This document shows positions 8,932-49,147 of a DNA stretch of 64,000 nucleotides, one piece after another. The DNA is taken from NCBI GenBank assembly GCA_022825235.1, contig JAJDYI010000066.1, positions 1 to 64,000 on the forward strand. Reading direction: 5' to 3'. The notes beneath the pieces were generated by a model, which searched no databases, was not told where the DNA came from, and was given only the letters and a program-made list of their open reading frames with translations. The stretch comes from Alphaproteobacteria bacterium (GTDB lineage Bacteria > Pseudomonadota > Alphaproteobacteria > TMED109). The position numbers and the translations under genes were made by a program. Within the stretch, counting starts at the first letter, position 1. Each line of letters begins with the position of its first letter.

Positions 8932-9354
8932 TCACCGGATGCCGTTCGCCCGCTGGAGTTCGCGGACATAGGCCACGATCGCCGCCACGTCGTCCCGGGT
9001 CAGCCCCTCGACCGGCGGCATGTCCCCGAAAGTCCAGTGGTGGGCCCGTACACCCCGGGCCACTGCGCGCTGGAACGATTCGTCGTCATGATGCCCGGGC
9101 TCGTAGAGGACGTGGACCAGCGGCGGCGCAATCCCGTCCTGCCCGGCGGCGTTCCGGCCGTGGCAGGACACGCAGTTGGCTTCGTAGGACCTCTGCCCGA
9201 GTTGCGCGTCGGCCGAAAGGGCGTCGGGGACATTGACGGTCACGATGGGCGGCCCGCTGCCGGCGCTGTCGGCGGCGGCGCCGACATGGGAGTGGGCAGC
9301 CACGCCGATGGCGGCAGTCAGGACGACCGGGATTGTGGCCCGCCTCAGTGACAT
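8932..9354 (-). CDS. Monohaem c-type cytochrome, copper-module partner
   Basis: This 140-residue exported cytochrome c has a signal peptide (residues 1-27 ending in VGAAA), a haem motif CVSCH at 61-65 and a probable axial Met112 in GDMPPV. Two unusual His pairs flank the haem fold: EPGHHDD at 86-91 and VRAHHW at 102-107. Its start overlaps the last ten bases of the DUF4396 gene, so the two are translationally coupled and share the CueR-type promoter. It should act in the periplasm as an electron carrier. Because it is controlled with a copper-type regulator, a role in copper oxidation or in supporting respiration under copper stress is plausible, but that is inference. Confidence 0.85.
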   Translation of the reverse strand: MSLRRATIPVVLTAAIGVAAHSHVGAAADSAGSGPPIVTVNVPDALSADAQLGQRSYEANCVSCHGRNAAGQDGIAPPLVHVLYEPGHHDDESFQRAVARGVRAHHWTFGDMPPVEGLTRDDVAAIVAYVRELQRANGIR

Positions 9355-9791
9355 GCCTTGCCGAGTGCCTTCAGCCGCCAGTAATTGTAGGGAAGCGGGG
9401 TGATGAAGCCGGCGGCCAACATGATCGGCACGACCCACCACGTCAGCACCGCACCGCCGGTCAGCGCCCAGTCCACTGCGTTCATCATGGTCTCCATGGC
9501 GACCATCGCGATGAAGGACATACCGATTGCCGTGCGAAACGCGGGCCACAGATCCATCTGGCGAGCCAGAATCACGGTCTCGAGGGCGATCGAGGTCAGG
9601 AGTCCGTTGAAGATCGCGAGAACCATGATTGCCGGGGTTGGCCACGGAATCCCGGTGAACTGGAAGAAGGCGATGGTGCCGAAGTCGCCGACGGCGCAGC
9701 CGAGCAGGCACCAGGCCGTGTTCCTCGAAGCCCGGCGCCACGTGTGGCGGCAGTACCAGTCGATAGCGAACCTCGCGGTGACGGCGACCAT
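9345..9791 (-). CDS. DUF4396 domain membrane protein
   Basis: This membrane protein of about 148 residues matches the DUF4396 family, with a GDFGTIAFFQ segment, a Met-rich helix (AMVAMETMMNAVDW) and the family's ending (LPYNYWRLKALGKACH). About four membrane helices are visible. DUF4396 has no settled biochemical role, but members often sit by copper-handling genes; the Met, His and Cys side chains in the helices and tail could bind soft metals (inference). I prefer the ATG at 9791, with AAGGGA eight bases upstream, over an in-frame TTG at 9797. It is the first gene after the MerR-type promoter and overlaps the cytochrome c gene. Confidence 0.82.
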   Translation of the reverse strand: MVAVTARFAIDWYCRHTWRRASRNTAWCLLGCAVGDFGTIAFFQFTGIPWPTPAIMVLAIFNGLLTSIALETVILARQMDLWPAFRTAIGMSFIAMVAMETMMNAVDWALTGGAVLTWWVVPIMLAAGFITPLPYNYWRLKALGKACH

Positions 9792-9821
9792 GGCCAAGTC
9801 CCTTGCCTCGTCTTCGCCGGT

Positions 9822-9852
9822 AACCTAGTGTCTCCAGTAACTGGAGAGTCAA
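9822..9852 (-). promoter_or_regulatory. MerR/CueR-type promoter with 19-bp spacer
   Basis: Read on the minus strand, a TTGACT -35 (9847-9852) and a TAGGTT -10 (9822-9827) are separated by exactly 19 bases. The spacer holds a perfect dyad, TCTCCAG-TAA-CTGGAGA (9831-9847), overlapping the last -35 base. The overlong spacer with a central dyad is the signature of promoters untwisted by metal-bound MerR activators. It points at the DUF4396/cytochrome c pair and lies 10 bases before the regulator's own start codon. Confidence 0.9.
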
Positions 9853-9862
9853 TAGGCGGGAA

Positions 9863-10264
9863 ATGAACATTGCCGCTGCATCGAGTGCCGCCGGTCTGCC
9901 GGTGAAGACAGTCCGCTATTACGCGGATATCGGACTGGTGTCGGCGTCCTCGCGGACGGCCTCGGGATACAGAATCTATGACGAAGGCGCCGTGCGAAAG
10001 CTCGTCTTCATCCGCCGGGCGCGGGAATTCGGGTTCTCGATCGACGAATGCCGGGAACTGCTGAGCCTCTACGAGGACCAGCACCGCTCCAGTGCCGACG
10101 TGAAACGTATCGCGTCCAAGCGTCTGGGAGAGATCGCGAAGAAGCAGCGGGAACTGCAGTCGCTGCACGACGAACTCGCCCACCTGGTCGATGCCTGCAG
10201 GGGCGACGACCGGCCGGACTGTCCGATCATCGACGGCCTGGGCCACCGGCACGCCGATATGTGA
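9863..10264 (+). CDS. cueR: CueR/HmrR-type copper-responsive MerR regulator
   Basis: This 133-residue MerR-family activator has an N-terminal winged helix-turn-helix (VKTVRYYADIGLVSAS), a long dimerisation helix (about residues 75-110) and a metal loop with Cys112 and Cys120, spaced C-x7-C. The Cys numbers and the following PII are those of E. coli CueR, which binds Cu(I), Ag(I) or Au(I). GGCGGGAA precedes the ATG. It is divergent from, and shares its promoter region with, the DUF4396/cytochrome c operon, which is its probable target. No copper ATPase is seen in the window, so its regulon either lies elsewhere too or is specialised here. Confidence 0.93.
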   Translation: MNIAAASSAAGLPVKTVRYYADIGLVSASSRTASGYRIYDEGAVRKLVFIRRAREFGFSIDECRELLSLYEDQHRSSADVKRIASKRLGEIAKKQRELQSLHDELAHLVDACRGDDRPDCPIIDGLGHRHADM

Positions 10265-10545: not shown

Positions 10546-11934
10546 TCAGACCGACAGCTTCAGCAGGAAGCGCGTGCCGGACGGCGAGGTACTCCCAAGC
10601 TCGAATGTGCCGCCGTGTGCAGCCATGATCTCCCGGACGATGATCAAGCCCAATCCGTGCGCGTTCACCACCGTGTCCGCAAACGGCCGTTCGAAGAACG
10701 CTCGGACCTCTTCCTGCAGGCCGGGACCATTGTCTTCGACCTCGATCAGAACGTGGTTCGGCCGCCGGCGGGCCCGCACAGAAACCTTGCCGCCATCGGG
10801 CATCGCGTCGGTGGCGTTCTGCGCCAGGTTGAGCAGTGCGCGGAACAGCTCCGCCTGATCGGCTTCGACGACCAAGTCGCCGGGTACATCGATCAGGAAG
10901 TCGACACGTCCCTCGTGGATGGCTGCTACCGAATCCCCCACTTCCACGGCGATTTCGCGCAATCGCGTCGGGGCCAGCGTGATCGGCGTGCCGCCGAAGC
11001 GGTGATAATCGAGCGTACGGGTGCAGATCTGAACTGCACGTTCCACGGCCTTGACCAGCAGCGGGACCAATTTCCGGACGCCCGGATCCTGAGCCGCCTT
11101 GATCTGGTCCGACGCCACCGCGGCGGTCTGCAGGACGTTGCGCAGGTCATGGTTGATCCGGCTCACGGACGCTCCGAGGGCGGCTTCACGATCACGGCGG
11201 TGCAGCAACGCTCGCAGACTGCTCTGCATCGAAAGCACCCCGCGCTCCAGGTCACCGATTTCGTCACGCCGGTCCGACGTCTTGACTGTCGTGTCCACGT
11301 CGTCCGGATTACGCGCGAACCAGGCCAGCCGTTCGATAATCGCGGTGACGGGCCGGACGAACTGGTGTTGCAGGACGAAGAATAGGAGGACGCCCACGGC
11401 AATGAATGGGGCAATTGCGCTGGCGCCAATCCTGAGCGAATGCTGCCACATGGCTTCTGCGAGCGGCGCCTCAGGTGCAACCACCTCGATCACGACGCTC
11501 GGGTACTGCTCGGCCGGGCCCACGATCCGGAGGATTCGCCCGCGGCCGTTGATCAGCGTGTCGAATGCGTGGCGCACGCGGCCTGGCCACGAGATGGCGG
11601 CCGGCCGCACTGTCTTGTCGACGGCCGTCGGCGTGGAGCCGATGACCAGCGTCGATGTGTCTCCGGTCCGAAGAATCACGGCCTGCGTCTCTGTGAACGC
11701 GAGCAAGCGCTGCCGCAAGTCGGGGTCGAGTTCGCCCTCGGATACGACCTGGACGACCCTGACCGTGTCATACGCACCGCGAAGCTGATCCTCGATCTCC
11801 GACAACCAGAACGCCGACACCGACGTCACGTACGACGCCGCCGCCCATAGCGCCGCGAAGGCCAGCGTGTGCTGGAGAACCCGCGCTGTCAGCGACCGAC
11901 GTGCGCGGCGCCGGCCGCCCGTCCCCGTCGCCAC
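10546..11934 (-). CDS. Orphan sensor histidine kinase
   Basis: This membrane sensor kinase of about 462 residues has a first membrane helix near residues 20-45, a periplasmic sensing domain to about 170, a second helix (about 172-192), a HAMP-like linker, and a phosphoacceptor helix with the histidine in RINHDLRNVL near 262. The catalytic domain follows, with N box (NLAQNATDA), G1 (DNGPGL) and G2 (GLGLIIVREI). The HDLRN H-box is less common than HELRTP. No response regulator adjoins it. I use the GTG one base after the upstream stop codon; a TTG at 11943 would overlap that gene. Tight coupling to the disulfide reductase hints at a redox or metal cue, but the ligand is unknown. Confidence 0.85.
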   Translation of the reverse strand: MATGTGGRRRARRSLTARVLQHTLAFAALWAAASYVTSVSAFWLSEIEDQLRGAYDTVRVVQVVSEGELDPDLRQRLLAFTETQAVILRTGDTSTLVIGSTPTAVDKTVRPAAISWPGRVRHAFDTLINGRGRILRIVGPAEQYPSVVIEVVAPEAPLAEAMWQHSLRIGASAIAPFIAVGVLLFFVLQHQFVRPVTAIIERLAWFARNPDDVDTTVKTSDRRDEIGDLERGVLSMQSSLRALLHRRDREAALGASVSRINHDLRNVLQTAAVASDQIKAAQDPGVRKLVPLLVKAVERAVQICTRTLDYHRFGGTPITLAPTRLREIAVEVGDSVAAIHEGRVDFLIDVPGDLVVEADQAELFRALLNLAQNATDAMPDGGKVSVRARRRPNHVLIEVEDNGPGLQEEVRAFFERPFADTVVNAHGLGLIIVREIMAAHGGTFELGSTSPSGTRFLLKLSV

Positions 11935-11935
11935 T

Positions 11936-13369
11936 TCACCCAAGGCGCGTCAGGAGGCCCACGATCTTCCGGGTGCGCGGTCCGAACAGCGCCGGCGTGA
12001 AGTACGACCCGGCAACCTGCTTGCTGATCTCGCCGCGGGTAGGGTACGGCAGGATGGCGCTGGTCATCTGCCCGATCTTCATCCGGTGGGTCGCCATCAG
12101 GCACCAGGGCTGAATCAGTTCGCCGGCGTGGGCACCGACCATGCTCGCCCCGACCACGCGACCGCGGTGCACGATGACCTTGATCAGGCCCTCGGTCTCG
12201 CGCTCCGCCCGGAATCGATCGTTGCCGCCCACCGGCATCTCCACCACCCGCACCCGGTCACCGAACCGCTCGCGAGCGGCCGGTTCGTTGAGTCCGACCT
12301 GAGCGATCTCGGGGTCGGTGTAGGTGACCCAGGGCGCTGCCGCCTCGTTGACCCGCGCGGGCAGCCGGAACAGGGCCCGGCGCACGACGATGCCGGCGTG
12401 ATACCCCGCGATGTGGGTGAACTGCAGTCGGCCGATCACGTCACCGATCGCGTAGACACGCCGATTGGACGTGCGCAACCCGTCGTCGACCTCGATTCCC
12501 CTCCGATGGCATCGAATTCCCGCTGCATCGAGATTCAGGTCCCCGACGTTGGCGCGCCGGCCGGCCGCCACCAGCAGATGGGTACCGGTCACCTCGCGGG
12601 TGCTGTCCGCATCCTCCACGGTGAGACGAATTCCACCCTCCGCCCTCGCTACCGACGTCACGGCAGCGCCTTCGATGACCGTGATGCCTTCCTGCTCAAA
12701 CCGCCGCGCCACGACCTGGGCCAGATCGGGATCGTCGCGGTGCAGCAGCCGGGCACGCTCCACCACCGTCACCTCGCAGCCGAGGCGTCGGTGCGCCTGC
12801 GCCAGCTCGCAGCCGATGGGGCCGCCGCCCAGTACCAGCAGGTGATCCGGGCGCACGTCATTGTCGAAAATGGTCTCGTTCGTGAAGTACGGCACCTCGT
12901 CCAAACCCGGCACGGGAGGAACGATCGGCGAGGAGCCCGTCGCGATAACGAACCGCTTCGCGCGGATCCGGATCGGCCCCGCCTGCACCTGATCCCGCCC
13001 CGTGAAGGCCGCCGTCTCCCGTAGCACGGTCGCGCCGAGACCTTCGAAACGCTCCTGCGAATCGTGTGGCGCGATGTCGGCGATGACGCCCTGCACGTGA
13101 TCTCGGACGCGCGGGAAGTCGGCGTTCGGGGCCCCTGCAGCGACCCCGAACCTGGCGGCGTGGCGGGCGGCATGCGCGGCATGCGCCGCCGCGATCAGGG
13201 ACTTGGATGGCACGCAGCCGTAGTTGAGGCAATCGCCACCCATCCTGCCGCGCTCGATCAGGACGGTATCGACGCCAAGCTGGGCAGCAGCGGCCGCCAC
13301 GCTCAAACCGCCTGAGCCCGCGCCGATGATGCACAGGTACGGGTACAACGTCGTATCGGAAGAAGTCAT
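11936..13369 (-). CDS. FAD-dependent pyridine nucleotide-disulfide oxidoreductase (MerA/Lpd-like)
   Basis: This 477-residue flavoenzyme belongs to the group containing dihydrolipoyl dehydrogenase, glutathione reductase and mercuric reductase. It has an FAD motif GAGSGG near residue 15, the redox disulfide GGDCLNYGCVPSK near 45, an NAD(P) motif VLGGGPIGCE, an ATG motif (IATGSSP), the second FAD site (YAIGDVIG) and a C-terminal dimerisation domain. Instead of the His-Glu pair of Lpd it shows PYPTRGE, as in the MerA-like YkgC/RclA group, so it is unlikely to serve a dehydrogenase complex. The MerA N-terminal metal domain and C-terminal Cys pair are absent. Either ATG 13369 or 13381 could start it. 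The kinase gene follows directly. Confidence 0.87.
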   Translation of the reverse strand: MTSSDTTLYPYLCIIGAGSGGLSVAAAAAQLGVDTVLIERGRMGGDCLNYGCVPSKSLIAAAHAAHAARHAARFGVAAGAPNADFPRVRDHVQGVIADIAPHDSQERFEGLGATVLRETAAFTGRDQVQAGPIRIRAKRFVIATGSSPIVPPVPGLDEVPYFTNETIFDNDVRPDHLLVLGGGPIGCELAQAHRRLGCEVTVVERARLLHRDDPDLAQVVARRFEQEGITVIEGAAVTSVARAEGGIRLTVEDADSTREVTGTHLLVAAGRRANVGDLNLDAAGIRCHRRGIEVDDGLRTSNRRVYAIGDVIGRLQFTHIAGYHAGIVVRRALFRLPARVNEAAAPWVTYTDPEIAQVGLNEPAARERFGDRVRVVEMPVGGNDRFRAERETEGLIKVIVHRGRVVGASMVGAHAGELIQPWCLMATHRMKIGQMTSAILPYPTRGEISKQVAGSYFTPALFGPRTRKIVGLLTRLG

Positions 13370-13796
13370 CACACTCAGCATGTCCAATTGGCTATGTGAT
13401 CGCGCTCCCTCGCACCATAATCCCGGCCCACGCATCGCGCGATTCCTGAGAACGTCGTGTCATCCGTCATCGGTCAGGGAACACGTCATTCCACAAGACG
13501 TAGTGCTTTCCATGAACGAAGGCCAAGGTGCGGTCGCGACAGCTGGAATGCGCAGCCTGGATAGCGGTCCACGTACCGGCGCCGGCCCGATGCGGGGCTG
13601 GGGGCCGGCCACAGTGCGCATCCGTTCCGACGTCCGCACCGCAACGGCTCCGCCCGTTGAAATTCCGGTCAGGCAGCCGAATCGCGGCCGCGCGGGCCAC
13701 CGTCAGGTCAGGGCGAATTACCGGCTCCTATACTGCCGGACGCGCGCTGGAACCCGCGCCGACCCCCATGTCCCGTTCATTCCGAGGAAGGCAACC
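13370..13796. other. Divergent intergenic region
   Basis: This region separates the divergent flavoprotein and aldehyde dehydrogenase genes and must hold both promoters, but I cannot assign reliable hexamers or operators. An open frame running in from 13224 lacks a ribosome binding site and family similarity before base 13797, so it is not counted as coding. Confidence 0.4.
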
Positions 13797-48691: not shown

Positions 48692-49147
48692 ATGGCGACA
48701 AGATTGACGATCGGTCGCGCCGCGGAAGCGGCGGGCTGCAAGGTACAAACCATCCGGTACTACGAGCAGATCGGGCTCCTTCACCGCCCACCCCGCTCGG
48801 AAGGCAACCAGCGACTGTTTGCGCACGAGGACATCCGCCGCTTGGCGTTCATCCGGCACGCCCGGGCCCTTGGCTTCCCCCTGCAGGCCATCCGTGACCT
48901 GCTGAGTCTCGGTGACGAGCCGGACCAGCCCTGCGAGGCTGTAGACGCCATTGCAAGGGCGCAGCTGGGAGACGTGGAACAGCGGATCACGTACCTGCAG
49001 GCATTGCGCTCTGAACTCAAACGCATGGTCGAACAATGCAGGGGCGGGCGCATCGCCGATTGTCGGGTCATCGAGGTCCTGAGCGACCACACGCGGCGCG
49101 AAATGTTCGACCATGCAGTGCCCCGTTCCGGCGTCGGATCGCCGTAG
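48692..49147 (+). CDS. MerR-family metal-responsive regulator (ZntR/CadR/PbrR-like)
   Basis: This 151-residue activator has the MerR winged helix (VQTIRYYEQIGLLHRP), a dimerisation helix (about 85-115) and metal cysteines at 81, 116 and 124. An extra Cys near 80 (DQPCEAVD) together with the C-x7-C loop is the pattern of divalent-metal sensors (Zn, Cd, Pb) rather than CueR. AGGGGAAAT precedes the ATG. It is divergent from the CDF-like transporter and co-directional with thiL, from which about 170 bases separate it. Confidence 0.9.
   Translation: MATRLTIGRAAEAAGCKVQTIRYYEQIGLLHRPPRSEGNQRLFAHEDIRRLAFIRHARALGFPLQAIRDLLSLGDEPDQPCEAVDAIARAQLGDVEQRITYLQALRSELKRMVEQCRGGRIADCRVIEVLSDHTRREMFDHAVPRSGVGSP

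Follow-up and report, generated by a model that had tools for sequence, protein, structure and literature searches.

The Cue system of Escherichia coli consists of CueR, CopA and CueO (PMC5329002). DUF4396 has been mentioned as flanking a 40-gene copper/heavy-metal island in Acidihalobacter, with no function given (PMC7760498). This was the sole paper naming DUF4396 that our literature search found, and none was found that names PF14342. The locus described here contains genes for CueR, a DUF4396 protein and a cytochrome c together with one promoter. It lies in the window, by which we mean the whole analysed stretch of 64,000 nucleotides. The host genome is alphaproteobacterial (3.85 Mb, completeness 96.3%) and its near relatives with names are metagenome bins, for example JAJDZX01 and the sponge-derived FZLR01 'Spongia_Bin9'. 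The features of the locus are the following.

9863 to 10264, plus strand: CueR, Cu(I)-responsive MerR-family regulator, 133 aa (TIGR02044, PDB matches, C112/C120/S77)
9822 to 9852, minus strand: CueR-type promoter of the DUF4396 operon, -35 TTGACT, 19-bp spacer, -10 TAGGTT (register common to 43 relatives)
9832 to 9846, no strand: CueR operator, the perfect dyad CTCCAGT-A-ACTGGAG within the spacer (sequence)
9345 to 9797, minus strand: DUF4396 membrane protein, 150 aa if counted from TTG 9797, probably 148 aa with a start at ATG 9791 (PF14342, 64-sequence alignment, model, hydropathy)
8932 to 9354, minus strand: cytochrome c, 140 aa, with an N-terminal signal or anchor (PF00034, alignment of relatives)

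The DUF4396 and cytochrome c genes are both divergent from the CueR gene. The gap between the CueR and DUF4396 genes is 65 nt, and the ATG end of the cytochrome c gene overlaps the DUF4396 stop by 10 nt. The first-pass annotation had described a regulator divergent from an overlapping pair, and the coordinates agree. Beyond CueR, positions 10546-13435 of the minus strand carry a HAMP/ATPase sensor kinase and a MerA-like FAD disulphide oxidoreductase; these stand beside CueR in only two sister genomes.

Judged by its sequence, the regulator is a true CueR. It passes the TIGR02044 equivalog model (153.0 bits, curated cut-off 147.4), its best PDB matches are the E. coli CueR entries, to which it aligns without gaps, and C112, C120 and S77 are found at the E. 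coli CueR positions, as in the monovalent-metal type. The CueR-numbered cysteines, already pointed out at first pass, are thus real. Assignment to the ZntR, MerR or CadR type was considered and rejected as those models score far below their cut-offs and residue 77 is Ser, not Cys. A second MerR-type regulator is encoded in the window at 48693-49147 on the plus strand, with 108.5 bits to TIGR02044, which is below the cut-off. It has a Cys in the region matching S77 of CueR and a dyad of its own (ACCTACAGTAGCTGTAGGT), and it is divergent from a cation diffusion facilitator-like gene, a partner identified by eye. This regulator is probably a divalent-metal switch.

On the DUF4396 strand the -35 box occupies 9852-9847 and the -10 box 9827-9822. 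A spacer of 19-20 bp combined with a dyad is the anatomy of a CueR promoter, and the hexamers here, 19 nt apart, show it. The dyad has a perfect 7+1+7 structure; a search of the window that tolerates two mismatches finds it one time, where 0.16 occurrences would be expected. A promoter with 19-bp spacer and a perfect dyad between the genes, as first proposed, are therefore present. The CueR box is found in a single register in all 43 gaps of divergent CueR/DUF4396 relatives, a count which uses a consensus composed after looking at these gaps. A fairer test is therefore the search of the seven genomes of the genus with TTGACYYTCCNGTNNCTGGARA. At up to two mismatches every one of the seven has exactly one site, and it always precedes DUF4396. 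In the window genome this sole box precedes neither an ATPase nor a CueO-type oxidase, the canonical Cue outputs.

The first-pass annotation had also proposed to compare DUF4396 neighbourhoods across genomes. We took the best 80 DUF4396 relatives of the genome collection and scanned their loci using models that had been made from the neighbouring genes of these same loci. Pfam searches with representatives confirmed CopC, CopD, Cu-oxidase, cytochrome c, MerR, cupredoxin and the CsoR-type repressor. As the loci include many from related marine lineages, they do not represent 80 independent events. A CueR-type regulator is directly divergent in 43 of the 80 loci. CopC/CopD are nearby in 26, a multicopper oxidase in 21 and a CopI-like cupredoxin or CsoR in six; about 20 loci have none of the searched copper genes. 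A cytochrome c is next to DUF4396 in 32 loci and does not directly follow it in the other 48. The motif C-x7-CP is present in all 45 CueR-like proteins. Fourteen loci have CueR and DUF4396 by themselves, without any other searched copper gene nearby. Some of these have short downstream sequence, and reading nine of them gene by gene we found that unrelated genes come next. We therefore regard DUF4396, not the cytochrome, as the core target.

The CueR-DUF4396 pair is a widespread unit, in relatives often accompanied by CopC/CopD and multicopper oxidase. Amylibacter marinus and Sneathiella sedimenti are examples of cultured bacteria that have it. This company of genes bears out the early reading of the locus as a copper circuit, and it lends good support to the suggestion that DUF4396 itself would have a direct role with copper. 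The output was first described as non-standard; for the window operon, DUF4396 plus cytochrome, this stands, but it is not peculiar to this locus. Likewise, only one half of the proposed output pair is constant, namely DUF4396. We consider it likely that the locus is a copper-tolerance unit run by CueR, with DUF4396 as its copper-handling core. Against this reading count the loci in which no searched copper gene was seen, the genomes that have both CopA and DUF4396, and a second DUF4396 of the window genome that is not linked to CueR.

CopA-type ATPases are regarded as the almost universal means by which bacteria deal with copper in the cytosol. The window genome gave no match with TIGR01511, the model of the copper P-type ATPase, while the same model matches all 14 control genomes. 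An incomplete assembly was rejected as the reason because a match is missing in five of the seven genus genomes, which are 92-97% complete. Across the class the model matches 18 of 42 DUF4396 carriers versus 43 of 60 non-carriers. For genomes with the CueR-type DUF4396 the ratio is 6/29 versus the same 43/60, where this subfamily (n=29) was set post hoc from length and model score after the loci had been seen and clade effects are only partly controlled. With one genome per family and stratification by size, the depletion of the ATPase has a Mantel-Haenszel p of about 2e-4. CopA and DUF4396 do occur together, in the said six of the 29 CueR-type genomes, including the close relative G006. A CueR above the cut-off is found in none of the 17 non-carriers that also have no ATPase. 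As to other copper genes, CopD (PF05425) has no match in any of the seven genus genomes. The search of the window genome for multicopper oxidases gave one weak C-terminal Cu-oxidase_2 (PF07731) match in a frame of about 380 aa, possibly a copper nitrite reductase; a clear copper-tolerance multicopper oxidase was not found there.

The DUF4396 protein matches PF14342 with E 1.7e-35 and 122.9 bits (gathering score 27) over model positions 1-141 of 141. The true start is likely the ATG at 9791 (148 aa) because the sister genomes start there; the residue numbers used here count from TTG 9797. Four membrane helices are predicted from hydropathy, the structure model has a pLDDT of 83, and by the positive-inside rule (positive residues 17-25, 79-88 and 141-147) both ends are predicted to be cytosolic. 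Thiolates and thioethers are soft ligands suited to Cu(I). Among 64 relatives C30, C34, M58, M93, M98, M101, M105, M126 and C149 are invariant, with C30 and C34 close to where helix 1 begins and C149 adjoining the C-terminus. The Met/Cys-rich helix of the first-pass annotation is hence largely conserved, except for M104, which varies. Also invariant are the acidic residues D38, E73, E102 and D109, which could couple protons. The 64-sequence alignment has no invariant or conserved haem-type His pair; the protein is therefore not itself a cytochrome b.

A Foldseek search of the structure model against structure libraries returned no match with E < 0.5. With VIA-align, the Rnf/Nqr subunits RnfA/NqrD appear at Z of about 5-6 (best Z 6.4, with rmsd 4.6 over 125 residues), which is too weak for a helical protein; a Z below 8 may reflect only a shared arrangement of helices. 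No copper transporter was prominent in this comparison. A tblastn search of the plasmid collection with DUF4396 gave no match.

The family is large, one scan having given 584 or more encoding stretches, and other members are found in other settings. The window genome has a second DUF4396, 55% identical, beside or after enolase and convergent with a TorD-like gene, with no link to CueR (L002:1435-1887; L029, G000:C85:17784-18236). In L052 a nitrate-reductase-delta type gene adjoins DUF4396. A His-rich DUF4396 of a distant branch is followed by a DUF305-like protein, recognized by eye from its motif (L111:1451-2402, minus strand), and this neighbour is possibly another copper link.

We suggest the following mode of action. 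Cytosolic Cu(I) would be sensed by CueR via C112/C120. CueR would then remodel the 19-bp-spacer promoter and switch on DUF4396 and cytochrome c, as the regulator family and the promoter anatomy imply; the operon should thus be copper-inducible. The four-helix inner-membrane DUF4396 protein would bind and handle Cu(I) itself. Its likeliest job would be to carry cytosolic Cu(I) outward via the invariant Cys and Met residues, perhaps coupled to protons through buried acidic residues, and it would fill the place of CopA. Since CueR and DUF4396 are paired in many marine bacteria, often without the usual pump, DUF4396 may be a copper exporter of a new kind. Export in place of CopA is plausible. That the protein truly exports Cu(I) we hold to be somewhat less probable than the contrary, and it speaks against export that a 150-residue protein without an ATPase domain would need some driving force. 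The general form of the idea is a shade more tentative still: in many marine and symbiotic alphaproteobacteria DUF4396 might have taken over from CopA as the principal target of CueR, as a small Cu(I) exporter of a new, ATPase-independent class.

Some of the relatives add independent support for the copper link of DUF4396 and also invite another reading. In L112 and L117 DUF4396 is fused in a single open frame with a multicopper oxidase, the linker containing His and Met, and L130 has a multicopper oxidase gene next to DUF4396. A CopI-like cupredoxin immediately precedes DUF4396 in L027, L071, L078 and L091; in L027, from a 1.4-Mb genome, DUF4396 is divergent from CsoR and a cytochrome. Together with the CopC/CopD neighbours, the fusion and these arrangements would fit a copper chaperone or an assembly factor of the membrane that loads periplasmic cuproproteins, the cytochrome being part of that delivery route. 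However, the 14 loci with CueR and DUF4396 have no cuproprotein gene nearby, and the window genome offers no clear copper-tolerance multicopper oxidase as a client. We judge this chaperone function to be unlikely, though it deserves weight, and we prefer Cu(I) export by DUF4396.

The role of the cytochrome has to be weighed separately. It is a class I cytochrome c (PF00034, E 2.7e-13, 51.5 versus 21.3 bits) with the haem motif CVSCH at 61 and, as a candidate for the Met ligand, M112 in the conserved FG(D/N)M. The His pairs that the first reading placed beside the haem are H88-H89 and H105-H106 and are invariant in the nine nearest cytochromes; the other cytochrome type has a comparable GHTWHH motif. 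In L033/L034 DUF4396, cytochrome and a long multicopper oxidase stand in a row. Window-type cytochromes occur also without DUF4396, in a CopC/CopD/multicopper oxidase cluster (L165) and with CopC/CopD (L167). More distant relatives are found in other settings, many of them outside copper loci. These His pairs, the copper neighbours and the 32 loci in which a cytochrome directly follows DUF4396 could point to a redox unit, in which cytochrome c and DUF4396 oxidise Cu(I) and the cytochrome passes the electron to respiration. Yet DUF4396 is retained where the cytochrome is lost, it has no invariant histidine pair and hence no haem site, and many relatives of the cytochrome have no copper context. 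Such a unit thus seems quite improbable to us. For the same loss in relatives where DUF4396 stays, we rejected the cytochrome as primary CueR target. Next to a DUF4396 exporter the cytochrome would rather be an accessory periplasmic electron carrier or redox partner, drawn from a CopC/CopD/multicopper oxidase pathway, which possibly takes up the electrons freed when exported Cu(I) gets oxidised. A direct electron flow from Cu(I) to the cytochrome is possible, its basis being co-occurrence.

Within the genus the CueR-DUF4396 pair is kept in all six other genomes with a protein identity of 82-96%, and the surrounding genes differ in four of the six. The cytochrome is intact in only three of the seven genomes. 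G005 and G001 have remnants of it, and G002 and G004 carry after DUF4396 the C-terminal remnant of a multicopper oxidase and a cytochrome of the second type. In view of this oxidase remnant, the two-gene operon of the window is probably a pared-down form. That it is the decaying and by now nearly functionless rest of a CueR-CopC/CopD/multicopper oxidase cluster, as the remnants in these four genomes might suggest, is very improbable because CueR, its box and DUF4396 are intact in all seven genomes while their surroundings change. In G005 the apparent start of a transposase-type gene, seen by eye at L023:5926-6300, abuts the broken cytochrome. This gene may be the cause of the loss of the remaining copper operon in that genome.

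A CueR regulon whose sole detectable promoter stands at DUF4396, with CopA undetected, provides a hypothesis on function for a large unannotated family. The CueR-DUF4396 unit also bears on the copper survival of abundant ocean lineages.

In comparison with known systems, the DUF4396 protein is a full-length match to a family of unknown function (PF14342). The relatives of the locus share their neighbours with CopC/CopD/multicopper oxidase clusters, in which the window-type cytochrome also appears; these cluster genes are missing from the window operon and CopD was found nowhere in the genome. To CopI copper tolerance there is a link through the cupredoxin beside DUF4396 in relatives, but the window operon has no cupredoxin and the regulator of the CopI-like locus L027 is of the CsoR type, unlike the CueR of the window. 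In contrast to E. coli with its Cue system, the window genome yielded no copA and no clear cueO. Both have a CueR sensor with C112/C120 and a long-spacer promoter with a dyad. Whereas CueR of E. coli drives copA and cueO, the CueR promoter of the window serves DUF4396 and cytochrome c.
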